From a virus, in the IMG/VR virus record IMGVR_UViG_3300046004_001559, positions 1 to 36,082 of that record: a DNA stretch of 36,082 bases. The stretch is one strand, 5' to 3'. The notes beneath the pieces were generated by a model. The model was not told the origin of the DNA. It searched no databases and worked only from the letters and a program-made list of their open reading frames with translations. Both the position numbers and the translations under genes were made by a program. Positions 1-23,765 of this stretch are shown here, piece by piece (the first letter of the stretch is position 1; each line of letters begins with the position of its first letter).

Positions 1-123
1 GCGATGCGATTTCCGCCTCTGAACGCGGCGCGGCGCTTCCCAGCTTAAGCCCCGGAATGCTTTGAAGCTGTCCAAGAATGTATTGCCCGACCTGAGGGGA
101 TCGCGCCGTCATCCCACCACCGC
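1..123. repeat. Terminal direct repeat, left copy
   Basis: This 123-bp stretch is identical to 35960-36082. A gene reads in frame through the join if one copy is removed, so the molecule is circular or circularly permuted with a unique length of 35,959 bp. The repeat could be an assembly overlap from a circular map or a true short terminal redundancy; sequence alone cannot separate the two. Confidence 0.97.
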
Positions 124-2047: not shown

Positions 2048-2048
2048 T

Positions 2049-2363
2049 TCAGATATCCTTAACCATGACGGTTATTTCCCGATAGCCGGGCAAGGCTCGC
2101 GCCCAGCCCCTACGGCCCGTGCAGATAATTCTCTCACAGCCCAATTCGCGGGCCTCGTCTTCGGCTTCCGCCAACATGCTTTTTAGTTCGTCCAGGCGGC
2201 CCGCCGCGAGAGGCAGTTCCATGACCTTGACCACCTGCGTTATTGCCGCCGATCCGTCCGCCAGCCACAGATGCGCGCTGCCATTTTCCAGCGCGTTTTC
2301 GACTTCCACGATACTGGAGCCGTCCGAAATCGCCGTTTCCAGCAAGGCGCGCCAATCAAGCAA
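2049..2363 (-). CDS. GNAT-fold-like protein, T7 gp13-type
   Basis: 104 residues. The C-terminal half has the pattern of an acetyltransferase-like fold: a beta strand ending in a VMELPLAAGRL segment, a long Glu/Ala helix, then CERIICTGRRGW followed by RALPGYRE. Many phages carry such a small GNAT-like protein beside their internal virion genes (T7 gp13 is the classic case), where it assists particle assembly rather than acetylating a known substrate. The gene overlaps the previous one by 8 bp. Assignment is by pattern recognition; enzymatic activity is not implied. Confidence 0.6.
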   Translation of the reverse strand: MLDWRALLETAISDGSSIVEVENALENGSAHLWLADGSAAITQVVKVMELPLAAGRLDELKSMLAEAEDEARELGCERIICTGRRGWARALPGYREITVMVKDI

Positions 2364-2571
2364 TGAGCGTCTCCGTCAGCACGCCCGACACCATCGAAAT
2401 CGAATAGCGTTCGCCCGTGACCGTATCGAGCAGGATCAGCCGCCCCGCCCCAATCTCGCAGTCCTGACCAGCCTCAAGCACCCGCGTCATGCGGTTCTCA
2501 AGCTCGTTACGAACCGCCACTTGGTCGCGCGCGTCGTAAGTTTCGGGAGGGGTCGGAAGGGTAAGTTTCAT
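2356..2571 (-). CDS. Small late protein, unknown function
   Basis: 71 residues from the ATG that overlaps the previous stop as ATGA; an in-frame ATG 42 bp upstream would lie inside the tail-hub gene and is less likely. The N terminus contains a PTPPETYD segment, then a helix with QVAVRNELENRM and a small beta-rich C terminus. Short proteins of this kind commonly sit between tail and internal virion genes in short-tailed phages. No function can be assigned. Confidence 0.65.
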   Translation of the reverse strand: MKLTLPTPPETYDARDQVAVRNELENRMTRVLEAGQDCEIGAGRLILLDTVTGERYSISMVSGVLTETLIA

Positions 2572-4031: not shown

Positions 4032-4033
4032 GG

Positions 4034-5359: not shown

Positions 5360-5360
5360 A

Positions 5361-8219: not shown

Positions 8220-8854
8220 TAAGCGTCAGCCCCAAACTGGAGACGCCAGCTAATCGCGGCCCCCGCTCCCGGCGTCAGAGCGCCGCCCGCCATCAGGGCC
8301 ATATAGATTTTGCCCTCCGCGTCGCACTGAACCATCAACGCGTTCTGTGAGGTCCACTGTTGCAGCCATGCGACGGCGTTACCGACCACCGCAGAGCCAC
8401 CGCTAGCCGAGCCGGAAATCCACGAAACCACCTTGGCGTAATCCGCCGAAGCCAGCGATGAAGTAACTTGGTCAGTGAAGGTCGAAGCGGACGGGTTGGC
8501 GTTGAACAGGACCGGCGCCAACGTCTGACTGGTCGGCGCGGCGTTGGCGCGAAGGATCGTGGAAATCTGAAACACGCGAATCCACTCGTTCGCCATCGAG
8601 GAACCTACAGCCGCCCCGATGTCTATCGTAATCAGGCCGCCCATCGCCTGTGCAGCGGCGTAGGCAGTCGTTAGCGGGGTCACGGTTCCGGCGGCCTCGT
8701 AAGGCTTGCCGTAGGGAAGAACAATCGTTCCGTCCATGAACCCGGAAGGCGACGATACCCCCGCGTAGGGAAGGCCCGTCGTCGGGCTAATCGAAACGGT
8801 TTCAGCGACCCAGCGGGCCTGCGTCGTCGCGTCAAGAGCTGGTCTGTCTGACAT
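8219..8854 (-). CDS. Putative virion/tail protein, unknown
   Basis: 211 residues with a beta-rich, Thr/Ser/Ala-rich composition and no signal peptide or enzyme motif. The segment DIGAAVGSSMANEWIRVFQIS and the C-terminal AISWRLQFGADA suggest a compact beta-sandwich. It sits between the adaptor gene and the spike gene, so it may be a spike-attachment or particle-decoration protein. No family was recognised. Confidence 0.65.
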   Translation of the reverse strand: MSDRPALDATTQARWVAETVSISPTTGLPYAGVSSPSGFMDGTIVLPYGKPYEAAGTVTPLTTAYAAAQAMGGLITIDIGAAVGSSMANEWIRVFQISTILRANAAPTSQTLAPVLFNANPSASTFTDQVTSSLASADYAKVVSWISGSASGGSAVVGNAVAWLQQWTSQNALMVQCDAEGKIYMALMAGGALTPGAGAAISWRLQFGADA

Positions 8855-8856
8855 GG

Positions 8857-9525
8857 CTATCGGTTCCAGAAATAGCGGCGACGAAGGGGCACTTCGGTCC
8901 GCAGGGTGATTTTGTTTGTTGGGTTCGGGTAAGCGTCAATGATGGCCTGGATTGCCGTCGTATAGGCGTCCGTCCATGCGCTAAGGCGTTCGTCCTGGGA
9001 GTAGATCGCGAACTGAACCAGAGCCCCGTAAAGGTAGGCGTCTGGATGGCGATACAGCAGCCAGTTTTGGGTATTCACCGAGAGCGGCGGGAGGCGCTGA
9101 TAATAGGTCAATTCGCCCGTGTAAGACGTGTCAGGAGCCGGGAAGAACTGAAACTGAGGCCCGACCACCGTGTAATAAAGCGGGGTTGCAGGAACGATGC
9201 CCGTCAGGCCGATTGATTCCTGTTGGATCAGCGCATCGCCGAATTTCAGTTGATTGAGGTTGCGCGGGTCGATGTAATCGAGCGGAACAACCGGGTCCGT
9301 TGTCGTCAGGATGAAGCTCACCGGCTCAATCATATCCGACGGGAAGTCTTCAAACTCCTCGTTAACGGTCGCATCCGAACGCAGCAGCATCGGGCGAACA
9401 CGCAAACTGCGCTCCATTTGCGCTTCTGCCAGGGTGATAAAATCGCCCCAATTGCTCGTCTGGTCCGTCCGTTGCGAGAACGTCGCCAGCGCGGCCTTGA
9501 GTTCGGTTGTGGTGGAAAGGGCCAT
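8857..9525 (-). CDS. Head-tail adaptor protein
   Basis: 222 residues, mainly helical. The N terminus (TTELKAALATFSQRTD...WGDFITLAEAQMERSLRVR) matches the phage adaptor family that forms the ring between portal and tail (the role of P22 gp4 or T7 gp11). The middle shows the typical beta insertion YYTVVGPQFQFFPAP and the GELTYYQRLPPL motif. The C-terminal helix region has RHPDAYLYGALVQFA. Order relative to portal and coat supports this. Overlap with the previous gene is TGATG. Confidence 0.85.
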   Translation of the reverse strand: MALSTTTELKAALATFSQRTDQTSNWGDFITLAEAQMERSLRVRPMLLRSDATVNEEFEDFPSDMIEPVSFILTTTDPVVPLDYIDPRNLNQLKFGDALIQQESIGLTGIVPATPLYYTVVGPQFQFFPAPDTSYTGELTYYQRLPPLSVNTQNWLLYRHPDAYLYGALVQFAIYSQDERLSAWTDAYTTAIQAIIDAYPNPTNKITLRTEVPLRRRYFWNR

Positions 9526-9710
9526 CAGGTCGCCTTACGTGGCCTGCCGCGAGGCTTGGAGCCGCCGGGCTTGCCGTCGCCGTCATGGTCAAGCGGGGAC
9601 GCAGGAACGCCGGGCGTATCAGACCAGTCGCCGCCGGGGAGGGCTTCGCCTGCCAGGAACAGCCGGGCTTCGTCGCCACGGTAAAGCCATGTGTCGGTTT
9701 TGAAGGTCAT
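9525..9710 (-). CDS. Small head-region protein, unknown function
   Basis: 61 residues from the ATG at 9710; a longer frame to 9821 overlaps the coat gene and is unlikely. The sequence has an N-terminal YRGDEARLFLAGEALPGG stretch and a basic Gly/Lys/Arg tail (SKPRGRPRKAT). Small proteins with this 'RLF..GE.LP' pattern are common after coat genes in short-tailed phages of proteobacteria, with no known function. The basic tail could touch DNA or the inner capsid; this is speculation. Confidence 0.6.
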   Translation of the reverse strand: MTFKTDTWLYRGDEARLFLAGEALPGGDWSDTPGVPASPLDHDGDGKPGGSKPRGRPRKAT

Positions 9711-9718
9711 AAGAGTAA

Positions 9719-9740
9719 GGGGGAGAGTTGCCCCTCCCCC
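9719..9740 (-). terminator. Hairpin after coat gene (weak/partial terminator)
   Basis: A 7-bp G/C stem pairs 9719-9725 with 9734-9740 around an 8-base loop, directly after the coat gene stop at 9749. No U-tract follows in the leftward transcript, so full termination is unlikely. A transcript-stabilising or attenuating hairpin that lets coat be made in excess is a reasonable reading. Confidence 0.45.
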
Positions 9741-9748
9741 TCCCTTGT

Positions 9749-10924
9749 CTAGTTGTTGGCCAGACGGACGGCTTGAGACGCGCGAAGCGTCTTGTAGCCG
9801 TAGAGGACATCGAGACGGCAAGGGAACTTGTCGTTGGTGATGTCGTATTGACGCACGATCCGCATGGACACGCCGTCCATCACTTCACGCGCGGCAAAGT
9901 CCACGCCCTTGGGCATGAACAGGTCGGCGGTCGCGAAGGTAAACGCGTCCTTGTGGTAGGCGAGCGAGATACCCGAAGCCGTCGAGGCCGTGCCAGCGAA
10001 GGTGATCGCGGCATTGTCGGCGGGAGCCCCGGAGACGTTCTGCGTGGCGCCGCTCGTCACGATGGACGGGCTGATAGCGATGCTCGTCGCGCCCGACGTG
10101 AACGTCGAGGTAACAACGAACTGTTGCAGAACGCCGGTCGAGGCCTTGGTTTCCGGGTGAACGCGATAGACGCCAGCGATGGTGAACACATCGCCGACCA
10201 CGCCCGCGCCAGTGCCGGTGTCCACAGTCAGGGTAGCGCCCGTCTGGGAGCCGCCGTTGATGAGGTAGCCGGATTCAGCGCCGCGCGTATGCGTCGGCCA
10301 CAGGGTATTTTCGAAGAAGTCGAAGCCAGCCGTGCGGCCCGTCATGCCTTCCTTATACTGTTTGGAAAGCGTGGCTTGATCGTTGAACAGGCCTTTCAGC
10401 GCGTCCACGAGGTCCACGTTATCCTGAGTATTCAGGTTGCAGGTGCGGTCAGACAGCGGGGCCAGAGCGTCCACGAGGATTTTCCGGCCTTGCAGCACTT
10501 TCGCGAAGGTCGCCGCCGAACCCTGGTTGTTCACCTGCTGGTAAACGTCCTTATACATGTTCATGGCGTCGGCTTCGATGTTGGCCGCAAGGACCGCCAT
10601 AGCCGGTTCAAGGATGCGCGACGAGAAGTCGTCAAGGCTCAGAGTCAGGTCCACGCTGGTGAAGTTCAGGTCAACGCCCTTTTGGGTCGCAACCTGAAGC
10701 GTCACGCTCGATTCTGTGGTGTCCTGCGCCGAAAGGGTAGCGCCAGAACGAACCGTGTATTGGTTCGGCAGGCGGACCTTGAGGCTGTCGCCGATCTTCG
10801 CGCCGGTTTTGGCGAAGCTGTCGTCATATTGACGGTTGATGGTGCCGACGAAGTTCAGCTTCTGGTGCAGAACACGCAGAGCTTCACGGGTGACGGCGGT
10901 TGGGGTGAGGATGGTGTTTGCCAT
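9749..10924 (-). CDS. Major capsid (coat) protein, P22 gp5-like
   Basis: 391 residues. The N terminus (MANTILTPTAVTREALRVLHQ...FVGTINRQYDDSFAKTGAKIGDSL.VRLP) is characteristic of the P22-type coat family, as is the segment DLTLSLDDFSSRILEPAMAVLAA. It forms the icosahedral shell around the scaffold. It lies downstream of portal and scaffold in the usual order, but an antisense endonuclease gene separates it from the scaffold gene. A ribosome site AGGAAAG precedes the ATG. A hairpin follows the stop. Confidence 0.93.
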   Translation of the reverse strand: MANTILTPTAVTREALRVLHQKLNFVGTINRQYDDSFAKTGAKIGDSLKVRLPNQYTVRSGATLSAQDTTESSVTLQVATQKGVDLNFTSVDLTLSLDDFSSRILEPAMAVLAANIEADAMNMYKDVYQQVNNQGSAATFAKVLQGRKILVDALAPLSDRTCNLNTQDNVDLVDALKGLFNDQATLSKQYKEGMTGRTAGFDFFENTLWPTHTRGAESGYLINGGSQTGATLTVDTGTGAGVVGDVFTIAGVYRVHPETKASTGVLQQFVVTSTFTSGATSIAISPSIVTSGATQNVSGAPADNAAITFAGTASTASGISLAYHKDAFTFATADLFMPKGVDFAAREVMDGVSMRIVRQYDITNDKFPCRLDVLYGYKTLRASQAVRLANN

Positions 10925-10992
10925 AGAAGTCCAAACTTTCCTGTTATATAGATAGGCCTACCGATTGAACGGAGCCGGGAAAGGATGCGCGC

Positions 10993-11622
10993 GTGCAAAG
11001 CATTTTGGTTAACGGGATCGAATATCGTTTCTTCGACCACATTTACGCAGCGTCGCGGTGCGGCAAATTCCTGCGATATCTCAAGCCACATAAGCCAACG
11101 AGCCACCCTCTCGGGTATTTGATGCTCGGAAGGCGGCGACTTGCTCACCGCGTCGTTGCGATCTGTTGGCTAGAGACGCGCGGTGGCGCGAAACTGGTCC
11201 ATCACATCAACCACGACAAAACCGACAACCGCGCCGACAACCTGATGTGGGTTACACCCAAAGAACACATGGGCGACCATCACCAGGACATCCCTCGCGG
11301 GCGCAACATGTCCCCGGAGGGCAAGCAGCGGCTTCGCAATCTTCGCCTTGGGTCGAAAACGTCAGAGGCGACCAAACAGAAGCAGCGCGAGGCTTCACTT
11401 CGCATCGGGTCACGTCCGCCGCCACGGCCCGTAGGGACGAAGGTGAGCGACGCGGCCAAGTCCCGCATGAGCGAGAACAGCCACAACGCCCGAGGGTGCG
11501 TGGTTAACGGTGTAGCCTATGCCTCGTTCACCAAGGCCGGGTTGGCGCTTGGGGAAAAAAGACACACGCTACGGAAACGGTGTTTTTCGCAGAACTTTCC
11601 CAACTACCGGCTATCAGAATAG
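10993..11622 (+). CDS. HNH homing-type endonuclease, antisense between coat and scaffold
   Basis: 209 residues. Residues 68-93 carry the HNH core (LVHHINHDKTDNRADNLMWV) with the paired His and the two Asn expected of the HNH_3 type. Residues 50-62 (LAHRVVAICWLE) are the usual strand before it. The C-terminal 45 residues (NGVAYASFTKAGLALG...TLRKRC) resemble the NUMOD/IENR DNA-recognition repeat of homing enzymes. It starts at GTG with AAAGG eight bases upstream. It lies on the strand opposite to all flanking structural genes, the mark of a freestanding homing gene that invaded the late operon. Confidence 0.88.
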   Translation: MQSILVNGIEYRFFDHIYAASRCGKFLRYLKPHKPTSHPLGYLMLGRRRLAHRVVAICWLETRGGAKLVHHINHDKTDNRADNLMWVTPKEHMGDHHQDIPRGRNMSPEGKQRLRNLRLGSKTSEATKQKQREASLRIGSRPPPRPVGTKVSDAAKSRMSENSHNARGCVVNGVAYASFTKAGLALGEKRHTLRKRCFSQNFPNYRLSE

Positions 11623-11638
11623 CCCGTCATTGAGGGGA

Positions 11639-12556
11639 TCAGGCGCGGTTTTGCTTCCGCACCTGTGCATCGCGCCAGCGCCTCCACTCGTCCGCGTTCA
11701 TCTTGTCCGGGTCTTTCAGAGCGGGAGCCGTAACAGCCCCAACCTTCGTGACCGGCTTGATGGATTGTGTCGCGGCGAGCTTTTGCGCGGCTTTGGCCTT
11801 GGTCTCGCCCTGTGCGGCTTTGAACGCCGTATGCAGGACCTTGACCACGCGAGGGTCAGCGATTCCGGCGAGTTCCTGCGGATCGAAGCCGAACGTCTTG
11901 GCCCCAAACTCCACAAGTTTTGTCGCCAGAGCGGGTGACCACTCGGGAATGTCTCGTTTCAGGACGGCTTGGCCTTCGTCGATTAGCCTGGCGTGGGCTT
12001 CACGCTGCCTTTCGACCTCCGCGCGCGTCGTCGTTTCGGCTGTAGTCAGGGCTTCCTGACGAGCCTCTTTCAGTCGCTGATGCGTCCGATAGGCCGCCTG
12101 GAGGGCGAGCGCGTCCTGTTGAGCCTCGTCAGACCTTCCGGCCTGTTGAAGCTGCTGAACGCGCACCTCCCATGCGTCCCAATCATAGCTATCGTATTCC
12201 TCCAGCCGGGCGTCGAGTGCGACCACCACGGCCTTGGCCTGAACGACTGCCTCGGATTGCTGGCCCGCAAGCGCAGCGGCTTGCGTCAGTTCCCGGCGTT
12301 GTTCGGCTAGTTCCTGCGTTTTGCGGGTGTAGTCCGCTTGCATCATCAGGGCGCCCTTGAGCGCCTTCGGGATGCGGTATTTCGCCCCGTCGACGTCGAC
12401 TTCCTCGTCCTCTTCCGGTTCGGCTTCGGCGTCGTCCTGCTCTACAGGATTGCCGTCATCGTCCAGTTCGGGTTCGGTTGCCGCGACTTCGGTGTTTTCG
12501 ACTTCCGTTTCGGGCGCAGTTTCGCCTTCGACGGCCTGGTCGGTTTCGTCAGCCAT
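11639..12556 (-). CDS. Capsid scaffolding protein
   Basis: 305 residues. The first 55 are extremely acidic (repeated Glu/Asp), then a short basic/hydrophobic stretch (DGAKYRIPKALKGALMMQADYTRKT), a long coiled-coil-rich helix (about 80-190), and a basic C terminus (DEWRRWRDAQVRKQNRA) that would bind coat protein, as in P22 gp8-type scaffolds. It lies between portal and coat. Scaffold directs procapsid assembly and leaves before or during packaging. The role is inferred from composition and position. Confidence 0.85.
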   Translation of the reverse strand: MADETDQAVEGETAPETEVENTEVAATEPELDDDGNPVEQDDAEAEPEEDEEVDVDGAKYRIPKALKGALMMQADYTRKTQELAEQRRELTQAAALAGQQSEAVVQAKAVVVALDARLEEYDSYDWDAWEVRVQQLQQAGRSDEAQQDALALQAAYRTHQRLKEARQEALTTAETTTRAEVERQREAHARLIDEGQAVLKRDIPEWSPALATKLVEFGAKTFGFDPQELAGIADPRVVKVLHTAFKAAQGETKAKAAQKLAATQSIKPVTKVGAVTAPALKDPDKMNADEWRRWRDAQVRKQNRA

Positions 12557-12587
12557 GTTGTCCTATGGGGTTTAGTGACCGGATGCT

Positions 12588-14570
12588 CTAGGCTTGTCCG
12601 GACCAGCCTTGCGGCGGGTTCTGCATAGCGGAGACAGCCTGCATACGCTCTGTCTCAGCTTGAAACTGATTTGTCTCAGCGGCCTTCGCCTTGATCTGGA
12701 GATCAGCGATTTTGATTTTCAATTCGGCCTGCTTCATTTCCTGATTAGCCTTGAGAGCGGCGTTCTCAGCCGTAAGCGTCTCAATCTGCTGCTGACCCTG
12801 CATAATCATTTGCTGAAGCTCAGGCGGAACACCGCCCTCTTGCGCTCCAGCCTGGGGAGGCAACAGCGCCTTGAGACGCTCCGCAATGTCATCCGCACCC
12901 GGCCAATCGAGGTTCGCCGCGATGAGGTCCCCGATCACGGGAGCCGCCGCCGGGAACGACTGAATTAGCTGCATCATCTGTTCCGCAGCCTCTTGGCGCT
13001 GCGTCGTGTAGCTTGGGCCAGCCTTGACGGTCAGGTCATACTTGCCGACGCTGAGATCATACATCCCCAACACCGGGTTGCCTTGTTCGTCCAGCTCGGG
13101 GCCTTCCTCGCCCTGCTTTTCAAACGGCTGGTTGATCTGGACCGTTTCCGGCTTCTCTTCCGGCCCCATGACCCGAACCACGCGGGCGGTATTGTAAACC
13201 GCCGGGATCAGGTCAATCAGCACCCGGCCAGCGTGACGGATGGCCCGCGACAGGTTGTCGATGAAGTGGAACGTCGAAACGTCCCCTTCCCTCTGACGCG
13301 CCAGGATAGCCCGCCCGCTCGTCTCGTTCGACCGTGCGCCCAGACTGGCGTCATACAGGCCGATAATCGCCTTCATGTCGTCGGAGGCGTTCAGCGCCTC
13401 TTGCAGCGCCCCGGCGGGAGGTCCAGCAAACGGCTGACGCTGGGGAGCCTCCGGCCCGTCGTATTCCATGTAAGCGTGCGTTGCCGTGTTGGCCGTCGCC
13501 CACTTTTCCGCATCGCTATCAAACGCCCCGACGCGCCCGATAAAGGGAGCCTTGGGGGCCAATGCGACAAGTTCGGTCGAGGCCGTGCGCCAATAGTTGA
13601 ACATGCGCTGGGCGTCTTTGGCGTCACGGATCAGGGAGCGGAAATAGCGCCGACCCTCAACGTTAACCTCGTCGCCATAGACCGGAACGATGGGGATGTA
13701 TTTTCCGGGCCAGTCGTTCGTTTCCAGCACCTCAGCGCCGCTGATAACCCGTTGCGTGACCTTGTAGGAACGGGCAACGCGAGGCTCGCCCTGGATAAAC
13801 ACGCCAGAGGCCTCAAACTCAGCCTGGTGCATCTCCCACGTTTTGGAATCCACCACCTCGCCACTCGTTAGGCCGTAGATGGTTTTTTCAACCTCTTCGC
13901 GGGTCCAGTATTCCGCAATCATCACCTCGTCGGCGATGTCATCGAACCACGGATTGCCCAGGCCAACGTAGCCCATGCCATCCCAATCAACCGGGTCCTT
14001 GTCCTTGAACCGGCGCTCAAACTCAGCCTTCGTGATCTTGTCCACCACGAACGCGACGTTCCAGTCGCTGCTGTCGCAAGCCGTAGAGAACGGATCGGCA
14101 AACACCGCAAACGGGTTGGCGATGCGACAGATTTTCAGGTCCTTCTCGAACGTGTCGTCGGTCGAGTAGTCGTAATCAATCCGGAAGAAGCCGAACCCGC
14201 CCACCACCGCGCTCTCCAGCGCCGTGTCGTAGGCAACGTCCGCGTCACTCGTGACCTCGATATTGCGGATCAGGCCGTTGATGATTTCGGCGGTTTCCGG
14301 ATCGGCGCCACTGTCAGCCGGAAGCACCTTGATGGATGGCGCGTTCTGGCGAGCGTCGTTCACCACCTGGCGAATGAACGCGGGCATCTTGTTGATGGTC
14401 AGGCAAGGGCGGCCTTCCGACATGCGCTGCTGGATGACTTGCGGGTCCCATTGTTCGGACAGGCGCGCAAAACGGATATCATCGAGCGCGTCAATGCGGT
14501 TGACGTTCTCACGTTCCGCCGCAAGCTCGAACAGGCCCCGCGCTTCTGTCAGAATCTCGTCGTCCGTCAT
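12588..14570 (-). CDS. Portal protein, P22-like
   Basis: 660 residues from the ATG that overlaps the terminase stop as ATGA (a GTG nine bases upstream is also possible). The N terminus (RFARLSEQWDPQVIQQRMSEGRPCLTINKMPAFIRQVVND) and the following IKVLPADSGADPETAEIINGL are diagnostic of the P22-type portal family. A Gln/Glu-rich coiled coil ends the protein (about 580-660). It forms the dodecameric ring through which DNA is packaged and ejected. It sits between terminase and scaffold as in P22-like head modules. Confidence 0.93.
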   Translation of the reverse strand: MTDDEILTEARGLFELAAERENVNRIDALDDIRFARLSEQWDPQVIQQRMSEGRPCLTINKMPAFIRQVVNDARQNAPSIKVLPADSGADPETAEIINGLIRNIEVTSDADVAYDTALESAVVGGFGFFRIDYDYSTDDTFEKDLKICRIANPFAVFADPFSTACDSSDWNVAFVVDKITKAEFERRFKDKDPVDWDGMGYVGLGNPWFDDIADEVMIAEYWTREEVEKTIYGLTSGEVVDSKTWEMHQAEFEASGVFIQGEPRVARSYKVTQRVISGAEVLETNDWPGKYIPIVPVYGDEVNVEGRRYFRSLIRDAKDAQRMFNYWRTASTELVALAPKAPFIGRVGAFDSDAEKWATANTATHAYMEYDGPEAPQRQPFAGPPAGALQEALNASDDMKAIIGLYDASLGARSNETSGRAILARQREGDVSTFHFIDNLSRAIRHAGRVLIDLIPAVYNTARVVRVMGPEEKPETVQINQPFEKQGEEGPELDEQGNPVLGMYDLSVGKYDLTVKAGPSYTTQRQEAAEQMMQLIQSFPAAAPVIGDLIAANLDWPGADDIAERLKALLPPQAGAQEGGVPPELQQMIMQGQQQIETLTAENAALKANQEMKQAELKIKIADLQIKAKAAETNQFQAETERMQAVSAMQNPPQGWSGQA

Positions 14571-15313
14571 CCCATCCACCCGCCAGCGCCTTGCGGGCGC
14601 GGTTTTGCTTCCTGAGCTACACGCGGACCAGCGCGAGCCATACGGCGCATCATCATCGCATAGCGGGATGCTGATATCCGGTCGTCCTTGACCTTCACAA
14701 TCAGACCCTTCTCGCGGTGATAAAGCCTAAACTCGCCAATCCAGCCGACGCAGGTTCGAAACACCTTCCAGCGGTCCGTTTCCATCCGCGTAAGCATTTC
14801 CGTGATGCCCGCCTCAACGCCGTTAGAGCCGTCGTCAAACGTGGCCTTCTCGTGCAGCATTTCGAGCCCTTGGGCGCGATACTGTTCAGCCAGTTGCTCG
14901 CCAGAACCCTTGTCGTGTTGCAGGCCGTCATGGGGCCACGCGCACGGTATCCACACCCCCCAGGGCTTGATCGCAGCCGCGTGAATGATCGGCGTCGATT
15001 CCCGCGCCGCATATTCCCGCGTGACGTAGATGCAGTCTGCATCCTTGTCCCAAGCGATGTTGACGCAGGCAAACGGGTGATCCCACCCAAAATCCATGCC
15101 GTTAAGCTGAACCCAGTGCTTTGGGATGGCGAAGGGTTCAACAATGATGCTTTCTTCCGTGACCGGAAACACGCGGCCCGATCCCATAATGGGGACGCCC
15201 TTGGTCCGCGCCTCGCGCTCATGGGCCGGATAGCTCGCGACAATCTCCGCGCGCTGTTGCGGCGTGTAATGCTCCGCGTCGTCAATCGTCATGGTCGTGA
15301 CGTGGCGGCTCAT
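14567..15313 (-). CDS. Terminase large subunit, nuclease half (separate ORF)
   Basis: 248 residues that align with the C-terminal nuclease domain of P22-like large terminases. It has the linker SRHVTTMTIDDAEHY at residues 2-16, the first metal-site motif NGMDFGWDHP with Asp74, a second acidic cluster PHDGLQHD (129-134) and a third KVKDDRISASRYAM (Asp210/211). The ATG overlaps the stop of the ATPase ORF as ATGA. Together the two ORFs give 483 residues, the usual length of one intact protein, with nothing missing at the joint. One additional A at the junction would fuse them. Real split or sequence error is open. Confidence 0.9.
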   Translation of the reverse strand: MSRHVTTMTIDDAEHYTPQQRAEIVASYPAHEREARTKGVPIMGSGRVFPVTEESIIVEPFAIPKHWVQLNGMDFGWDHPFACVNIAWDKDADCIYVTREYAARESTPIIHAAAIKPWGVWIPCAWPHDGLQHDKGSGEQLAEQYRAQGLEMLHEKATFDDGSNGVEAGITEMLTRMETDRWKVFRTCVGWIGEFRLYHREKGLIVKVKDDRISASRYAMMMRRMARAGPRVAQEAKPRPQGAGGWMG

Positions 15314-16017
15314 TGGTCAGCCTCAGCGATCAGGAACATGCTCACCACGTCCGACATGCCCAGCAGCGGCGTGAACGTCAGAAACACCATTCCGCCGGTC
15401 GCGTTCGTCCGCGTCAGGCCTTCCATGTAGATGTCTTGCGGCGGCTCCTCATCGAACCACACGCCGTCCAGCGTCTCGCCCTGCCACTTCTCCCGGCCCT
15501 GGTCGTAGGACTTGAACCCGAGCGTGGACGTTTCGCCGCTCACATGCTTGACCAGCACGCTATCGAGCGCATCGGGCACGCCCTGACGCATCGACCAGTC
15601 CACCAGCAAATCGCCGGGGATAAACCCCTCGCCCCATTTGGCGCGGTCTTTCGGCTCACCGACCAGAAGACGCTGCACACCGTCGCGGGTCACTTCGCCG
15701 GTCTTTGACCCAGCCCACCACCGCGTTGGCTTGTCGAACCGCCGACCAGCCCACCAATCGGGATAAAGCCCGGTCAGGTGAAACGACACTTCAGCAGCGC
15801 CGGAGAATGTCTTGCCGAGCTGATTACCCGCCATCAAAAGCCGCTCGCGATGATCCGCGCCCGCCTCGTGAAACTCTCGCTGCTTAGTGTATGGCCGATA
15901 CGTCTTGAGACGGTTGCGCCTCGCCCGCCTCGCCCGCTCCTCCAGCAGCGACACCAGTTCCGACTTGAAGCCCAATGACACTTGCGAGGGTTCGGATTCG
16001 AGCGTCAAGCTGCTCAT
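15310..16017 (-). CDS. Terminase large subunit, ATPase half (separate ORF)
   Basis: 235 residues forming the packaging motor domain: Walker A AGNQLGKT at 63-70, Walker B VWFDEE at 187-191 with the catalytic Glu, and coupling motif LTFTPLLG at 213-220. The protein stops 15 residues after the coupling motif, where intact homologs continue into the nuclease. The nuclease follows as its own ORF in the other frame. The N-terminal 44 residues overlap the small-subunit gene by 134 bp, and no clear ribosome site precedes the ATG at 16017. An internal GTG at 15954 is an alternative start. Confidence 0.9.
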   Translation of the reverse strand: MSSLTLESEPSQVSLGFKSELVSLLEERARRARRNRLKTYRPYTKQREFHEAGADHRERLLMAGNQLGKTFSGAAEVSFHLTGLYPDWWAGRRFDKPTRWWAGSKTGEVTRDGVQRLLVGEPKDRAKWGEGFIPGDLLVDWSMRQGVPDALDSVLVKHVSGETSTLGFKSYDQGREKWQGETLDGVWFDEEPPQDIYMEGLTRTNATGGMVFLTFTPLLGMSDVVSMFLIAEADQ

Positions 16018-16285
16018 CGGTGAGGTCGCTCGTGGTTTCTATCTTGAACTCTTTCGGAAGCAGGCCAGCGATAACCCGCATATAAGCCGCCGGGTCTTCC
16101 TCGCGGACCTTCGCCAGCGCGCCCACGCCATGCTCTGCAAAGTCGTCATGCAGAGCGGAGACAAACGCCTCTCCGAGCTTGTTCCTGGCGCCTTTCGGCC
16201 TTCCGGGGTTGCCCGCCTCAAACCTCTTGCCCTCAGGCATGGCTCGCGGCGTTTTCTCCCCGTTATTTCGGGGATCGTCGGCCAT
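15884..16285 (-). CDS. Terminase small subunit-like protein (DUF5681-type)
   Basis: 133 residues. The N terminus has the basic motif FEAGNPGRPKGARNKLGEAF typical of DUF5681/small terminase proteins, a helical middle (HDDFAEHGVGALAKVREEDPAAYMRVIAGLLPKE), and a C-terminal LTDEQLDARI motif common to this group. It would recognise the phage DNA and regulate the large subunit. It starts with ATG overlapping the previous stop as TGATG, and its 3' end overlaps the large-subunit frame. Position directly before the large subunit supports the call. Confidence 0.82.
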   Translation of the reverse strand: MADDPRNNGEKTPRAMPEGKRFEAGNPGRPKGARNKLGEAFVSALHDDFAEHGVGALAKVREEDPAAYMRVIAGLLPKEFKIETTSDLTDEQLDARIRTLASVIGLQVGTGVAAGGAGEAGEAQPSQDVSAIH

Positions 16286-16449
16286 CAGCTAACCGGCTCG
16301 TTAAACACGACCTGAAGCTGACCGTCGGCGTTCGGGTCATGGGACCAGCTAACCGTAACGGTCTTCCTGGTCGCAGCGGCATAGTCGAGCATTGCAACGC
16401 GGAGAGCAGTCCTGAACGTGTCTTCCGGCGATGCGGTTTCGGCAGGCAT
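16285..16449 (-). CDS. Small first gene of the late packaging block, unknown
   Basis: A 54-residue ORF beginning PAETASPEDTFRTALRVAML and ending FNEPVS. A GAGG ribosome site lies eight bases before the ATG, and the stop overlaps the small-terminase start (TGATG), so it looks translated and coupled. It follows the 330-bp leader and is thus probably the first late gene. A short family with this shape is often found before terminase genes. No function is known. Confidence 0.65.
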   Translation of the reverse strand: MPAETASPEDTFRTALRVAMLDYAAATRKTVTVSWSHDPNADGQLQVVFNEPVS

Positions 16450-16618
16450 GGTGTCAGACCTCGTTCGGCTTCCTGACTAGGGATACCATCAATCAGCCAT
16501 TGCCGCAGCGCCGAACATGAAGATGGGATGAGGGTCCGCCGCGCGGTCTAGCGGTCATGTATGCGCTTTGCGAGTTGGGACCTGACCGGCGGCGAATTGG
16601 GATAATCGTTTTAGGAGG

Positions 16619-16652: not shown

Positions 16653-16675
16653 GGTGAACGGGCTTTGCCGTCACC
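16653..16675 (-). other. Stem-loop in late leader (proximal)
   Basis: GGTG, a bulged A, then ACGG pairs with CCGT followed by CACC around a 6-base loop, eight base pairs in total. It lies five bases from the next stem-loop. Two tandem stem-loops in a leader resemble cis-acting antitermination RNAs such as put of HK022, but the sequence is unrelated. Confidence 0.55.
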
Positions 16676-16718
16676 GGGTTCTGGCGTGCGTTGCCGCGTG
16701 GTGCGCCGTTGGCCCCAG

Positions 16719-16740
16719 ATGCGAAGCATCATTACCGCAT
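16719..16740 (-). promoter_or_regulatory. ops-like hairpin candidate for the NusG paralog
   Basis: Leftward strand reads ATGCG, then GTAATGATGCTT, then CGCAT: a perfect 5-bp stem with a 12-base loop. It contains GCGGTA followed four bases later by TGCTT; the E. coli ops element recognised by RfaH has GCGGTA followed three bases later by TGCTT. It starts about 40 bp after the stop of the NusG-like gene. The likeness may be chance; it is recorded as a candidate. Confidence 0.3.
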
Positions 16741-16778
16741 CTTGTGGATCAATTCGCTGGAAACCGCAAGGGGTGGCG

Positions 16779-17285
16779 TTAAGCCGCCCTCTCCAAATCC
16801 CCAACAGCAATCTTCGCAGGGCCTCCCGTAAGCCTCCCGAGCGCCTTGATGAACACCGCAACCCGCTTTGCGCCCGGCTTGGCTTCCATGATCGTGGCGA
16901 GCATCCCGGCGAAGGGGCCTCCGATGATCTTCACCGCCTCGCCGTTGGCGTAGGTTATGCCCTTGCCTTGGGTGTAGTCAAAATGCCCTGCCCGCTCACG
17001 TTCGCGGATTTCGTGGACCCACTCAAACGGGATAGCCTGGGGATGGCCCGCGCCGATGAAGCCATCAATGCCGTCTGTCTGTTTGACCGTGTAGAAGCTC
17101 TGGCCTTCGTTCAGGCGGAAGAACAGGTAACGCGGCAGGATCGGGCGTTCTACCGTGTCTTTGATGCGGGCGTGCGAGCGCAGATGCTTTTCGCATGGGA
17201 CGTAAGCCTCTATCCCGCGTTCAGCGAGGGAGGCGGCGGCGCGGCGCTCTTGGCGAAGGCCGGTGTAGGCGACGAACCAGGACAT
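16779..17285 (-). CDS. NusG/RfaH-like transcription antitermination protein
   Basis: 168 residues. The N-terminal NGN domain is clear: WFVAYTGLRQERRAAASLAERGIEAYVP (3-30), then RPILPRYLFFRL (47-58) and TDGIDGFIG (70-78). A KOW domain occupies 115-150 (NGEAVKIIGGPFAGMLATI). This is the two-domain layout of NusG/RfaH, proteins that ride on RNA polymerase and change pausing and termination. ATG 17285 overlaps the previous stop (TGATG); a longer frame to 17573 is out of context. The gene is the last before the late leader, the place lambda-like phages keep Q, so a role in late antitermination is likely by inference. Confidence 0.92.
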   Translation of the reverse strand: MSWFVAYTGLRQERRAAASLAERGIEAYVPCEKHLRSHARIKDTVERPILPRYLFFRLNEGQSFYTVKQTDGIDGFIGAGHPQAIPFEWVHEIRERERAGHFDYTQGKGITYANGEAVKIIGGPFAGMLATIMEAKPGAKRVAVFIKALGRLTGGPAKIAVGDLERAA

Positions 17286-17461
17286 CAGTTCAACACCCCC
17301 CGCTCGGGCCGCGTCCAGCCGTTTTCGAGTAGCCAAGCCGTCATCAGCATGGCGTTGATCCCCGCTTGATCCCAACTTCGGCGACCGTTGGCAATGGCGT
17401 GCATAATCTCGTCCATTGTCGGCATGTATTCGTCGTCGTTTGATGGTTCTGGGATGGTCAT
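17285..17461 (-). CDS. Small acidic protein, unknown
   Basis: 58 residues from ATG 17461, which overlaps the previous stop as ATGA; an in-frame ATG 30 bp upstream is less likely. N-terminal acidic segment EPSNDDEYMPTMDEIMHAI, then WDQAGINAMLMTAWLLENGW. It is coupled to the NusG-like gene by TGATG. No family recognised. Confidence 0.65.
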   Translation of the reverse strand: MTIPEPSNDDEYMPTMDEIMHAIANGRRSWDQAGINAMLMTAWLLENGWTRPERGVLN

Positions 17462-18157: not shown

Positions 18158-18720
18158 TGGCTGTTAAACCTCACCATTGCGCTCTCGATACCCGTCAGCA
18201 TGGCTTGGCGAGGGGATGCGTAGCGGTCGCACTCAGCAACAATCTCCCCCAGCGTCGGGAACCAGCTACAGCGCACGGCAAGTTCCTCGCACGCCTTCAG
18301 GGCCACGTCGGCGGGGTATCGCTTCAGGGCGCCAGCGTAAAGCGCCAGCGTCAGCATCGCCGCCTCCTGCGACTTGCGCCCGCCTGCTGTCGCCACCTGG
18401 AGCATCGCCAGCCAGTTTTCGGCCTGCTCCGTGGTCGGCGGCGCCATCGCCGCTTCAACCTTGCGATAGGCCGCCGGGAGGTTCGCGCCAACACCGCCGA
18501 CCTGACAGCCCTTCGCCACGCGATAAGCGGGCTTGTCGGGGGGGTAGCGCCATTCAAACACCGGCTCGACCTCGACGCTCAGCGATGATTGAAGCGAAGT
18601 CCGAAGGGCCTTGTCCGTAGCCACCGGGTCTCGCCCCACCAGCCACGCGCGGGCCTGCTCTTCGGTTGCGACACCAGTTCCGCCATGTTGCGGGCCAGTC
18701 GGACTTGCGGCCTCCTGCAC
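18154..18720 (-). CDS. Putative replication accessory (helicase-loader-like) protein
   Basis: About 188 residues from GTG 18720; TTG 18762 and GTG 18639 are other possible starts. The C-terminal half has LYAGALKRYPADVALKACEEL and then SWFPTLGEIVAECD, with a final R.AML. This 'YP.DV...W.PTL.E' arrangement is familiar from phage replication accessory proteins paired with DUF1376 genes, of lambda P-like size and position. The 5' part overlaps the DUF1376 gene by up to 167 bp in another frame. The role in replication is inferred, not shown. Confidence 0.55.
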   Translation of the reverse strand: MQEAASPTGPQHGGTGVATEEQARAWLVGRDPVATDKALRTSLQSSLSVEVEPVFEWRYPPDKPAYRVAKGCQVGGVGANLPAAYRKVEAAMAPPTTEQAENWLAMLQVATAGGRKSQEAAMLTLALYAGALKRYPADVALKACEELAVRCSWFPTLGEIVAECDRYASPRQAMLTGIESAMVRFNSQ

Positions 18721-19315
18721 CCGGCTTAGCGCACCAGAAATCGCGGAACTTATCGGCTTCAAGGGTGATCTCCTCGTCTGTCATACCCTGAGCGGTGGCG
18801 AAGGCATAGCCTCCGGGATCGGGCGTCCAGTCGTCAGGAAGACGGGAGCCCTTGGCCTTCGGTTCGATTGTCTTTGCAGAGGCGGTAGCCTCTGTTTCTT
18901 TCTTACTTTCTGGTTCTAACTCTGGTTCTGAAGAATGCTCTGGCAAAACTGTAGCAATTGCCACAGGCTGCGCGTTATTTTTCAATGACTTAGCCACACC
19001 GCCGCGAGTTCCAGCTTCGGCACGTTTGATCGACTTTTCTTGCGCTTTTTCGAGCTCAAGCATGAGCCGTCGGCTAACCAAATTGCTTCCGTCATTGTCA
19101 AAAAACGCCACCACGGCGGCCCCAATTTTCGACCAGCGCGACTGAGTGCAGCCCGCCAGCCGCGCCAGCGTTTTAGCGTCGTTCGGGAGGCTTCCACCGA
19201 CACGCCACATGGTCATCAACAGCAGCAAATACGCGCCATGCTGCTCCGTCGTTAAATGGCGCGTGTCGCCCAGATAATCGGCGACATAAAGCTGCATGAA
19301 CGGCGGCGCGCTCAT
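18554..19315 (-). CDS. DUF1376-like replication initiation protein
   Basis: 253 residues from the ATG that overlaps the zinc-protein stop as ATGA. Residues 5-60 (PPFMQLYVADYLGDTRHLTTEQHGAYLLLL.. and SLPNDAKTLARLAG) are the DUF1376 signature, a winged-helix-like domain found in phage replication initiators. A charged linker rich in Glu/Lys follows, then DEEITLEADKFRDFW and DWPATWRNWCRNR, typical of the C terminus of these proteins. It likely binds the phage origin, which may lie inside the gene. A Gly/Arg-rich tail overlaps the next gene. Confidence 0.8.
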   Translation of the reverse strand: MSAPPFMQLYVADYLGDTRHLTTEQHGAYLLLLMTMWRVGGSLPNDAKTLARLAGCTQSRWSKIGAAVVAFFDNDGSNLVSRRLMLELEKAQEKSIKRAEAGTRGGVAKSLKNNAQPVAIATVLPEHSSEPELEPESKKETEATASAKTIEPKAKGSRLPDDWTPDPGGYAFATAQGMTDEEITLEADKFRDFWCAKPGAGGRKSDWPATWRNWCRNRRAGPRVAGGARPGGYGQGPSDFASIIAERRGRAGV

Positions 19316-19692
19316 CCCACGGACCACGCCCGAATGAGTTTGCGGGCTTGATCGGCTGACAGATACCGGAAAGACAGCGGCTTCTTCAGGATGGCAGAGC
19401 CCATGTTATAGGCCCGGCTCCTCGCCTTGTATGGCGGGCCGCCCATAAACCGGTGAATGTCTTCCACCAGGGCGTTAAACAGCCCCATCGCCTCCACGCG
19501 AAGGTCATGGGTTTCGCGGTGAGCTGGACGCCCGTTGACTTCCATTGTCGGGGTAGCGGCGGCAAAGGCCCCGCACTCACACTTCCAGCCCGGCCCGTCG
19601 TCTCCGACCTGAAAAAATGGCCGCTTGCCGCATTCGCAGCATCGCTTCGGCTTGTAGTTCGGAGGCGGGGAAAGTATGTTCTCGGCGTTCAT
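19312..19692 (-). CDS. Zinc-finger protein, DUF3268-like
   Basis: 126 residues. An N-terminal zinc ribbon has Cys18/19, Cys21, Cys38 and Cys40 around a Trp (CCECGKRPFF..WKCECGAFAAATPTMEVNGRPA), followed by helices with LRVEAMGLFNALVEDI and SRAYNMG. This matches the DUF3268 zinc-finger pattern of phages. ATG has AAAGGAAC upstream, so it is translated independently after the hairpin at 19722-19755. Probably a DNA-metabolism accessory protein; the activity is not known. Confidence 0.7.
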   Translation of the reverse strand: MNAENILSPPPNYKPKRCCECGKRPFFQVGDDGPGWKCECGAFAAATPTMEVNGRPAHRETHDLRVEAMGLFNALVEDIHRFMGGPPYKARSRAYNMGSAILKKPLSFRYLSADQARKLIRAWSVG

Positions 19693-19721
19693 CGGCGTTT
19701 GTTCCTTTAGCCGGTGGTCAG

Positions 19722-19755
19722 CGGGCAGGTTGAGCGGTTGGACGCTCCCTGCCCG
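19722..19755 (-). terminator. Strong hairpin between DnaA-like and zinc-protein genes
   Basis: An 8-bp stem (19722-19729 with 19748-19755), a two-base bulge and a further 5-bp stem (19732-19736 with 19743-19747) around a 6-base loop. It follows the DnaA-like gene stop at 19762 in the leftward transcript. No U-tract follows, so it may only slow polymerase, stabilise RNA, or be a regulated attenuator. Confidence 0.5.
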
Positions 19756-19761
19756 ACGTGT

Positions 19762-20052
19762 CTAACTCATTTCAATGTTCTGTCCAATGCGTCGCTCATG
19801 CGCCCGTATCCCATGAATGACGGTCGAGTGGTCGCGGTTTAGAAAACGCCCGATCTGAGGGAGTGTCCACCGGCCTTCCTGACGCATTAGCCACATGGCT
19901 TCCTGGCGAGCGCGGGCCAGCCAAGCGTCCCGCCTCGATCCTTTTAACTCAGCGACTGAGACGCGCCGATCCGCCGCAACCCGTGCCGCAATCTTGGCCA
20001 TCGTCGGGGCGGTGCTGATCCAGCCTTTCCAAAGGCTCAGAACCGCCGCCAT
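19762..20052 (-). CDS. Stand-alone DnaA domain IV-like DNA-binding protein
   Basis: 96 residues. Residues 30-90 reproduce the DnaA C-terminal domain: RVSVAELKGSRRDAWLARARQEAMWL, then LPQIGRFLNRDHSTVIHGI with the DHSTV signature that reads the DnaA box. There is no AAA+ ATPase domain, and the protein is complete, so it is a natural domain-only protein rather than a fragment. Start ATG overlaps the upstream stop (TAATG). It may bind DnaA boxes to start phage replication or compete with host DnaA. Domain call is strong; the role is inference. Confidence 0.85.
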   Translation of the reverse strand: MAAVLSLWKGWISTAPTMAKIAARVAADRRVSVAELKGSRRDAWLARARQEAMWLMRQEGRWTLPQIGRFLNRDHSTVIHGIRAHERRIGQNIEMS

Positions 20053-20327
20053 TAGACGCGACCGTAGCCGATCATACGCAGATGGGCCCTGCAAGCATTC
20101 ACCGTTCGTCCCAACTCATCGGCCATCCGCTTATAGGACCAGCCAAGCCGATACATTTCGACGAGCCGGTCCTCCTGGTAGGCCCACGGCTTCTGATACA
20201 TGATCGGGCCAATCGTCTGAGGCGTGACCGTCACGGGCTGAACGTGCAGCCGGTCCATCATCTCAGAGAACCCCGCAAACGTCGCCAGAACGTCGGGGGC
20301 GTCAACACGGCGGAAGTTGTCAGGCAT
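20052..20327 (-). CDS. SANT/GcrA-N-like small HTH protein
   Basis: 91 residues from ATG 20327 (AGGAG lies 11 bases upstream; the ATG overlaps the GcrA-like stop by 8 bp). Longer in-frame starts would lie deep in the previous gene. The C-terminal 45 residues (AYQEDRLVEMYRLGWSYKRMADELGRTVNACRAHLR) have the three-helix pattern seen in the N-terminal domain of GcrA and Myb/SANT proteins: acidic-aromatic helix, 'L...G.S...MA..LGRT', recognition helix. It likely binds DNA, perhaps with the neighbouring GcrA-like protein. Confidence 0.65.
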   Translation of the reverse strand: MPDNFRRVDAPDVLATFAGFSEMMDRLHVQPVTVTPQTIGPIMYQKPWAYQEDRLVEMYRLGWSYKRMADELGRTVNACRAHLRMIGYGRV

Positions 20328-20967
20328 AGCGGCGAACGCTCCTGTAAAGCTGCTTTCCGGTCGTGGCGGGGGCGTTATAGGCTCGCGCCTCATGTTCTCC
20401 GCAGTAGGTCGCATCCCCCGACCGTTGACCGCACATGACCAAATCAGCACCCGAGCCCGTCAGCGGCCATCTACAGGCCCCACGGGCGGGGATTGTCAGG
20501 ACAGTGCAGCCCTTGATGTTGGGATCGGCAGCCTCGCAGACGATACGGGCGGGGGCCTTGCTCTGACCCAGCTCGCGCTTGCGCCTTGCGGAATCGGTAC
20601 CATTGCGACCGGCTCCGGTGAACGGAGCCAGGACAAACGAACGGGCGTCGATGATGGAGATTTTCAGCGTGCGCGTGCGGGACAGGACTTGATTATAGGT
20701 GAACCCCAGCACGTCGGCCATGTCCTGACGGCTGGCCTTGTTTTTCGCCATCTCCCGCAGCTTGTCGTCCAGTTCGGGGGACCATTTGGCGCTGTCTCTC
20801 ATGGAGATGGACGGCCCGGCGCGGCTTCCACTCAGCCCCATCCGATGCACAACCCCGATGATTGAATTGCGACTGACGCCGTATTGCCGCCCGATGATCG
20901 TTGCGGAAAAGCCCTGCTGCCAGAGCTTGGCGACTTCGGCCCGTTTCTCGTCGGTCCAGATGGTCAT
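20320..20967 (-). CDS. GcrA-like cell-cycle regulator with an extra HTH segment
   Basis: 215 residues. Residues 1-48 (IWTDEKRAEVAKLWQQGFSA, then GVSRNSIIGVVHRMGLSG) are the diagnostic GcrA DNA-binding domain. The C-terminal part keeps the GcrA-type sigma70-contact zinc-like motif: ACRWPL (164-169), CG at 179-180, then YCGEHEARAY (188-197). Between them, residues 61-102 form a second SANT/HTH-like unit (KWSPELDDKLREMA...QDMADVLGFTYNQVL), absent from ordinary GcrA of about 170 residues. GcrA activates sigma70 promoters at methylated GANTC sites in Caulobacter. A phage version could redirect host transcription. Coupled by ATGA at both sides or by overlap. Confidence 0.88.
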   Translation of the reverse strand: MTIWTDEKRAEVAKLWQQGFSATIIGRQYGVSRNSIIGVVHRMGLSGSRAGPSISMRDSAKWSPELDDKLREMAKNKASRQDMADVLGFTYNQVLSRTRTLKISIIDARSFVLAPFTGAGRNGTDSARRKRELGQSKAPARIVCEAADPNIKGCTVLTIPARGACRWPLTGSGADLVMCGQRSGDATYCGEHEARAYNAPATTGKQLYRSVRRYA

Positions 20968-21143
20968 GGCCGCACCGTCACAATCCGCCCATCGGGAAGC
21001 CGAGCGTTGTAGATAAAGCCCCCAAGGGCCAGCACCTTGCGGACGTAAACAGCGTCACCCGGCCCCAGGTCCAAAGGCTTCTGGGTAATGTCTATGCCGC
21101 GTTGTGACCAGTGCAGATTGGTCTTTCCAGACGTTCTCGTCAT
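20964..21143 (-). CDS. Small basic hypothetical protein
   Basis: 59 residues starting TRTSGKTNLHWSQRGIDITQ and ending FIYNARLPDGRIVTVRP. ATG overlaps the HNH gene stop and its stop overlaps the GcrA-like start, both as ATGA. The C-terminal half looks like a small SH3/OB-like beta unit (GDAVYVRKVLALGGFIY). No family recognised. Confidence 0.6.
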   Translation of the reverse strand: MTRTSGKTNLHWSQRGIDITQKPLDLGPGDAVYVRKVLALGGFIYNARLPDGRIVTVRP

Positions 21144-21493
21144 TGTCCGAACTTCCTTGATGGTATGGGCCTGCTCCCCTTGGAGAACGGGCGGGATTTC
21201 ATGCGGGATGGCTTGCGGGTGTCTGGGTCAGACTTGGCGATGATGCGCTTGACCTTGGCCCTGACAGTGGCGTCCTTCGCGGTCTTCGGCTTGTCGCAGG
21301 CGGGGCAGAAAAACCGCAGGTTGGCATCATCATCCGCGCCACCCATCCAAAGCGGGATGCGGTGATCTATGACCGTTCCTTCCATCGGGACCTTGGCCCC
21401 GCATTCGCAGCGACCGTTGCAGGCAAGAAACAACCGAAGCCGTCTTGCCTTCGTCATCGCCTTGCGCGGGGTTGGGCCGACAGGCTCACGCAC
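21140..21493 (-). CDS. HNH endonuclease (operon-resident type)
   Basis: 117 residues. Core motif: ACNGRCECGAKV (paired Cys), VIDHRIPLWMGGADDDANLRFFCPACDKPKT in which Asp43-His44, Asn58 and Cys63/Cys66 supply the HNH and zinc ligands. The basic tail ends with KPSRMKSRPFSKGSRPIP, common in phage HNH proteins of proteobacteria. Start GTG 21493 overlaps the previous TAG by one base, and the pre-core PTPRKA segment is conserved in this group. Unlike the two antisense HNH genes, it is collinear and coupled with neighbours, so it is likely a phage function (packaging or recombination nuclease) rather than a mobile gene. Confidence 0.82.
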   Translation of the reverse strand: MREPVGPTPRKAMTKARRLRLFLACNGRCECGAKVPMEGTVIDHRIPLWMGGADDDANLRFFCPACDKPKTAKDATVRAKVKRIIAKSDPDTRKPSRMKSRPFSKGSRPIPSRKFGQ

Positions 21494-23075: not shown

Positions 23076-23765
23076 TTGAGAACCGAACAATTCACCATCG
23101 CCCGGCGCTGGTTTTCCAGCCTCCCGCCGATCACCGTTGAAATTGCCTGCGCTGCCGATACTCCAGCGGGGATTCGGCTGGGCTTGGCGGTGAAAGTTGC
23201 CATCGGGCAGAAGGCCAACCTGACGGGGGCCAACCTGTCGCGGGCCGACCTGACGGGGGCCAACCTGTCGCGGGCCGACCTGTCGGGGGCCTACCTGTCG
23301 GGGGCCAACCTGTCGGGGGCCAACCTGACGGGGGCCAACCTGACGGCGGCCAACCTGTCGCGGGCCGACCTGACGGGGGCCAACCTGACGGGGGCCGACC
23401 TGTCGGGGGCCTACCTGTCGGGGGCCAACCTGTCGGGGGCCAACCTGACGGGGGCCAACCTGACGGGGGCCAAAATCAACGGCGAGCCCGTCACCCGCTG
23501 CTTCGCCAGGATCATGCGCGACGACGGCTATGGCTTCCTTGCGTTCACCCTCGAAGCGGGCGGTGTCAAGATCATGGCCGGTTGTCGCTGGTTCACGGTT
23601 GCTGATTTCCGCGCGCACGGCGCTGCCAGGTATCCCGACACGAACAAGGCGACTGAGACGCTATGGATTTTGGACGCCATCGAGCGCCGGGCCGTTGATC
23701 TGGGTATCGCCCTGACGCCGGAGCCGGTCGCCAAGCCCAAGCGTGCCCGGAAGGCGGCGGCATGA
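23076..23765 (+). CDS. Pentapeptide-repeat protein
   Basis: 229 residues from TTG 23076, five bases after a perfect AGGAGG. Residues 1-46 form a beta-rich N terminus. Residues 47-131 are 17 perfect A(N/D/Y)LxX pentapeptides, enough for about four coils of a right-handed square helix. The C-terminal domain ([31 protein letters not shown], then [15 protein letters not shown]) is the usual end domain of phage proteins of this kind. Some pentapeptide proteins mimic DNA and protect gyrase; whether this one does is unknown. The repeat block is nearly identical at DNA level. Confidence 0.88.
23214..23468 (+). repeat. 15-bp tandem coding repeats with a 120-bp duplication
   Basis: Seventeen 15-base units encode the pentapeptides. 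Positions 23221-23340 and 23341-23460 match at 117 of 120 bases; the second 60 bases of each are identical. This points to recent unit-number change by recombination or slippage. Confidence 0.93.

Follow-up and report, generated by a model that had tools for sequence, protein, structure and literature searches.

A translationally coupled phage operon encoding a tandem-HTH GcrA-like protein, a small HTH protein and a stand-alone DnaA domain IV

The window analysed here, which at 36,082 bases spans an entire IMG/VR virus record, carries three small genes that encode a GcrA-like protein, a small helix-turn-helix (HTH) protein and a stand-alone DnaA domain IV, in that order, and these genes are translationally coupled, under purifying selection and contained in a DNA block shared between two phages. 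They are part of a minus-strand run that descends from ~22.0 kb, beginning upstream in the operon with an HNH endonuclease gene (21140–21493; Pfam HNH, 2.1e-6) and a gene for a 59-aa protein taken from the ORF listing (20964–21143), which overlaps the GcrA-like gene on its upstream side. The GcrA-like gene (20320–20967; 215 aa), the small HTH gene (20052–20327) and the DnaA domain IV gene (19762–20052; 96 aa) follow, and after them come genes for a Zn-ribbon-like protein (19312–19692) and a DUF1376/primosomal protein (18554–19327; Pfam DUF1376, 3.7e-18; PHROG primosomal protein, 5.9e-44). Further genes lead to a NusG-like transcription antiterminator (16779–17300, minus strand; PHROG 6386, 4.3e-20; NusG-like by sequence reading), and then to the terminase and portal genes. 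Starts and stops overlap at every junction from HNH through DnaA domain IV, and these overlaps, together with the purifying selection described below, bear out the original prediction of three coupled genes lying side by side.

The GcrA-like protein matches the Pfam GcrA profile (PF07750) above its gathering cut-off, at E=4.6e-23 and 82.7 bits (cut-off 26.9). Both of its GcrA domains, the DNA-binding domain (DBD, residues 3–46) and the zinc-type sigma70-interacting domain (SID, residues 152–215), align with the Caulobacter GcrA PDB chains 7ye1, 5yiu and 5yix, confirming the earlier claim that the protein keeps the GcrA DNA-binding domain as well as the C-terminal motif, which reads CRWP...CG...YC..H. 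The zinc-type ligands C165, C179, C189 and H192 are among the invariant positions in 16 phage GcrA-like proteins, as are R33 and R42. GcrA of Caulobacter crescentus (PF07750, NF050816) likewise has an N-terminal DBD and a C-terminal sigma70-interacting zinc domain with an aligned CxWP...C...YC..H motif. Against the equivalog NF050816, however, the phage protein reaches 88.3 bits where the cut-off is 280, and we therefore treat it as a member of the family and do not call it a cell-cycle orthologue. The two-domain architecture originally described is also incomplete, since a second HTH (residues 57–102), which Caulobacter GcrA lacks, lies between the DBD and the SID and is followed by a disordered linker. 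A second GcrA-type HTH before or beside the SID part is seen as well in the viral contigs L026 and L004, and weakly in L101.

The AF2 model of the GcrA-like protein (mean pLDDT 70) reveals the same organization, with two successive three-helix HTHs at 6–43 and 64–100 (block pLDDT ~84–93), a disordered linker and a C-terminal domain. Foldseek aligns the C-terminal domain with chain 5yix_B, in which the GcrA SID was solved in complex with sigma70 domain 2 (TMt 0.72 and rmsd 1.8 over 42 columns; E 0.16); for the tandem HTH it gives an alignment with 2lvs, a protein that binds CRISPR repeats (E 3.3e-3). With E-values this modest, the assignment is carried by the sequence matches. Taken with the fold, they suggest that the GcrA-like protein may bind sigma70 domain 2.

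The small HTH gene most likely occupies 20052–20327 and encodes 91 aa. The listed ORF (20052–20450) begins too early; an ATG at 20327 overlaps the stop of the GcrA-like gene, and this overlap supports the shorter call together with a homologue in the related contig L005, which is 81% identical and has the same start. The Myb/SANT-like HTH spans residues 48–86, with AF2 helices at 48–60, 65–72 and 76–86 in a low-confidence model for which Foldseek returns no significant match. The Pfam scores are sub-threshold for both Myb (14.9 bits; cut-off 24.4) and Sigma70_r4_2 (19.9 bits; cut-off 25.7), which weakens the SANT/HTH part of the finding. As judged from the alignments, the HTH of the small protein is clearly most like the second HTH of the adjacent GcrA-like protein (37% over 35 aa; BLASTP 8e-4; 0 of 2000 shuffles), and the natural reading is that the gene would have arisen by duplication within the operon. 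Its resemblance to GcrA-N is weak (hhalign E 3.5e-4, probability 37%; pairwise p=0.2). Therefore, of the earlier description as GcrA-N/SANT-like, the SANT-like HTH stands at a sub-threshold level, and the closest relative is the second HTH rather than GcrA-N. Single-protein searches of phages and viral contigs with the small HTH protein found no homologues.

The DnaA-like protein matches Pfam Bac_DnaA_C at E=6.2e-18 and 65 bits (cut-off 31.5) and aligns with PDB 1J1V. Only the C-terminal profile stretch is matched (96–110 aa), without AAA+ domain III and without the N-terminal domains, in agreement with the prediction of a box-binding domain alone. With significant matches to both the GcrA and the Bac_DnaA_C profiles, the prediction does not fall for want of an HMM match to either family. 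The best named match of the protein is DnaA itself (1.3e-16). In E. coli numbering, the window protein keeps R399, R407, Q408, D433, H434 and T436 and has S in place of T435; the roles of these residues in box reading are taken in part from PMC9638019. Among 45 distinct phage DnaA domain IV proteins, a set gathered in part by an RQEAM pattern and the profile and hence biased above all at R407-Q408, R407 is found in 45, D433 in 43, H434 in 44, T or S at position 435 in 44, T436 in 42 and R399 in 38. The near invariance of the box-reading residues suggests that reading of DnaA boxes is constrained.

PRK06030/NF004688 is probably the family to which GafY/HdaB belongs, and against this model the window protein scores 16–17 bits, far under the cut-off of 136; orthology with GafY/HdaB is not supported by that score. 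There is nonetheless a likeness, since GafY/HdaB (CCNA_01111) and GafA are also stand-alone (or N-terminal) DnaA-domain-IV-like regulators tied to a phage-like element; a point of difference is that the window protein retains the box-reading residues. GafY, which belongs to the gene transfer agent of Caulobacter, binds RpoD domains 3–4 and activates the phage-like cluster with IHF, and GafZ acts as the antiterminator (PMC11150451). The authors of PMC9632790 proposed that GafY does not regulate oriC-based replication, contrary to the earlier HdaB proposal, and relatives of GafA are present in roseophages (PMC6363796). These precedents lend themselves to a reading in which the operon acts on the phage's own promoters, with a GafY-like DnaA domain IV and a GcrA-like sigma70 cofactor switching on middle or late genes in concert with host IHF and the NusG-like antiterminator. 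The set and the NusG-like gene do share a strand and are located upstream of packaging, and a TGATCCACA box is found at 16743–16751, in non-coding DNA that follows the nusG-like gene. We nevertheless consider this reading unlikely: the box is not kept in the related contig G001, the window protein is closer to DnaA than to PRK06030, and a Pfam scan of the neighbours found no GafZ/DUF6456 partner, the antiterminator there being NusG-like instead. A search for repeated operators and conserved dispersed motifs gave none that was convincing.

The arrangement is not confined to the window. The order HNH, GcrA-like, HTH, DnaA domain IV, Zn-ribbon is the same in a related virus contig (L005/L010, G001), and the longest DNA block common to the window and G001, 19306–20967 at 86% identity, covers the three genes. 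In comparison, blastn of the structural-gene region of the window (1–16485) against G001 gave no match, and a portal was not found in G001/L005 by a search that had no positive control. The proteins are 80–82% identical to those of G001, with dN/dS values of 0.23 for the GcrA-like protein, 0.26 for the HTH protein and 0.13 for DnaA domain IV, values that indicate purifying selection on each of the three. The HNH gene adjoins the set in L005 too, and elsewhere HNH genes lie near those for DnaA domain IV. In L083, a highly diverged contig, the GcrA-like gene is followed directly by DnaA domain IV, then by an HTH gene reading as SANT-like and then by DUF1376. Looser pairs, 0.2–4 kb apart, occur in L012, L025, L026 and L028 and in phages Ssp-JY42 and Yong-M4-211. 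The neighbours are thus conserved in related phages, kept in order in L005/G001 and reordered in L083, and the prediction survives the synteny search.

How general the combination is was surveyed in 50 viral contig records picked by their DUF1376 protein, a sample of mutually related fragments; a portal-based control set, consisting mostly of short contigs, was left out. GcrA-like genes are present in 16 of these contigs and DnaA domain IV genes in 21, all on the DUF1376 strand and most within a few kb, but both are present in only 3, against 6.7 expected. The depletion (Fisher, one-sided p=0.022, two-sided p=0.03) is suggestive at most, since the contigs are fragmentary and related. A strong positive linkage between the two genes is argued against by these counts, and conservation of the whole set across DUF1376 phages was not found. 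The triad thus brings together two early genes that are each common, in a combination that recurs but is itself uncommon. The counts tell against the set as the unit, and it is not a generally conserved cassette.

These frequencies raise the possibility that common early-region regulators of alphaproteobacterial phages, mostly located near the same primosomal gene, became neighbours by chance and have no joint function. Such a mosaic accident is possible, though on the unlikely side, given that the genes are translationally coupled, that the 86% block is common to phages with different structural genes, and that the triad is met again in L083. The proximity to DUF1376 also bears on a separate reading, in which DnaA domain IV belongs to the replication module, marking the phage origin and loading helicase with the DUF1376 protein, and the GcrA-like and HTH proteins are separate regulators. 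Indeed, in many phages the DnaA domain IV gene overlaps or closely precedes DUF1376 on the same strand, or directly follows it, and in Rhizobium phage RHph_N28_2 an annotated DnaA-domain protein adjoins DUF1376 and HNH genes as it does here; unlike the window, the annotated neighbours shown for that phage include no GcrA-like gene. In G001, however, it is another replication-type protein that adjoins this DnaA domain IV block, and the region examined there gave no match to DUF1376; the window, moreover, holds no cluster of DnaA boxes. We find this replication reading improbable.

The candidate target sites in the window were counted as well. The exact DnaA box TTWTNCACA is absent from the 36,082 bases, which is weak evidence because few exact boxes are expected in 36 kb, and sites with one mismatch are at chance level (24 observed, 22.4 expected), so that DnaA boxes show no enrichment. 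TNATCCACA is present at 3 places where 0.47 would be expected, one of them in the non-coding DNA after the nusG-like gene and not kept in G001, which has a single occurrence; this excess makes a few phage sites possible. GANTC, the CcrM methylation site, is ~5-fold depleted (30 observed, 147 expected) and is missing altogether between 16000 and 20590. DNA binding by GcrA is methylation-dependent (PMC3667746). Most of the related phage contigs tested have GANTC ratios of 0.1–0.5 (full range 0.09–0.78), and CcrM-bearing hosts avoid the site too (PMC3973325). We therefore rejected GANTC avoidance as GcrA-specific evidence; being so general, it says little about GcrA and supports an alphaproteobacterial host. 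The phage probably infects an alphaproteobacterium. Searches of bacterial genome contigs with the GcrA-like protein and the DnaA domain IV profile found no relatives.

The reading we favour, tentatively, is an early takeover module whose targets would be the sigma70 promoters and DnaA boxes of the host. It is suggested by the GcrA and GafY precedents and by a domain IV that keeps box-reading residues and has no motor. The operon of three DNA-binding proteins, whose gene position suggests early expression, would redirect host sigma70 transcription and the sites of DnaA boxes. The zinc domain of the GcrA-like protein would bind sigma70 domain 2 and bring RNA polymerase holoenzyme to promoters picked by the two HTHs, and the small HTH protein may serve as a partner in promoter selectivity. 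DnaA domain IV, lacking both the AAA+ motor and the helicase-recruiting domain, would occupy DnaA boxes without initiating replication and so may compete with host DnaA at oriC and at DnaA-controlled promoters; alternatively, it could act on a few phage sites in the manner of GafY. The expected outcome is a state of host replication and transcription that serves the phage. With few GANTC sites the phage offers few GcrA-type sites, making host DNA the richer target, and together with the absence of an exact DnaA box this weakly favours host targets. Counting against the takeover module is the lack of enrichment for co-occurrence (3 of 50).

Because GcrA and GafY both contact sigma70, we rate takeover of sigma70 transcription, on promoters of either host or phage, no less likely than cell-cycle mimicry, which we regard as only one possible reading of the set. 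A location beside primosomal and NusG-like genes would likewise agree with a role in controlling the phage's own expression or replication. A more specific version of the takeover, a mobile early override in which the GcrA-like protein, as a tandem-HTH cofactor of sigma70, and DnaA domain IV, as a decoy lacking the motor, jointly uncouple initiation of host transcription and replication from the host cell cycle, seems rather unlikely to us. The favoured reading has three serious competitors, namely control of phage promoters, a part in replication and chance neighbourhood. The readings weighed here are not exclusive, and our confidences in them sum to more than one.

Phage GcrA is itself known, both from several annotated records and from the Caulobacter phage homologues published in 2012 (PMC3556154), which confirm the expectation that some Caulobacter phages carry GcrA relatives; phage DnaA domain IV genes are on record as well. 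In the phiCbK-like phages, gp222 is a phage-borne GcrA proposed to alter the host replicative state (PMC3556154), described there as a lone gene in ~215-kb genomes, whereas the window couples its GcrA-like gene to an HTH protein and DnaA domain IV within a 36-kb record. No description of a coupled phage GcrA and DnaA domain IV set was found in the part of the literature covered by our search. As far as can be told, what is new here is the gene coupling, the tandem-HTH GcrA architecture and the shared block. The original emphasis on the set and its arrangement as the new point thus holds for the coupled set and not for a generally conserved cassette. The effect of phage GcrA on the host replicative state has been proposed since 2012, and our literature search found no proof of it; with a compact operon that pairs a GcrA-like protein and a bare DnaA domain IV, the question could be put to the test on three small genes. 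The set could reveal whether stand-alone phage DnaA domains are replication decoys or GafY-style transcription activators, and could let a phage take over host sites of both transcription and replication.

Several further observations were made on the window and its relatives. The Zn-ribbon-like protein is the most conserved of the genes compared, with 96% identity to G001 and a dN/dS of 0.15; with this identity and its place inside the 86% identical block, the gene is co-transferred with the set. Two non-coding-looking stretches upstream of the packaging genes, 16486–16598 and 16671–16776, are conserved with G001 (89% and 75%) despite the lack of blastn similarity in the structural genes that follow, and may contain a late promoter, regulatory RNA or packaging site. 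The terminase large subunit appears as two adjoining minus-strand ORFs (15310–16017 and 14567–15313) that overlap by 4 bases and match separate parts of PHROG 2, indicating a split terminase or a frameshift. At 23153–23527 a 15-bp unit is repeated in tandem, in ~18 copies or more, which would give a 5-residue repeat on translation. Synechococcus phage Ssp-JY42 (L003), a cyanobacterial record, carries GcrA-like and DnaA domain IV genes and has a GANTC ratio of 0.29, so that the phage may in fact infect an alphaproteobacterium that was present in the culture. Finally, a gene resembling those of DNA methyltransferases and carrying an SPPF motif, with no counterpart recognised in the window, recurs 5' of HNH or DnaA domain IV genes in related phages (L005:4588–5658, L014:1354–2271, L016:2142–3086 and L018:5073–6068).
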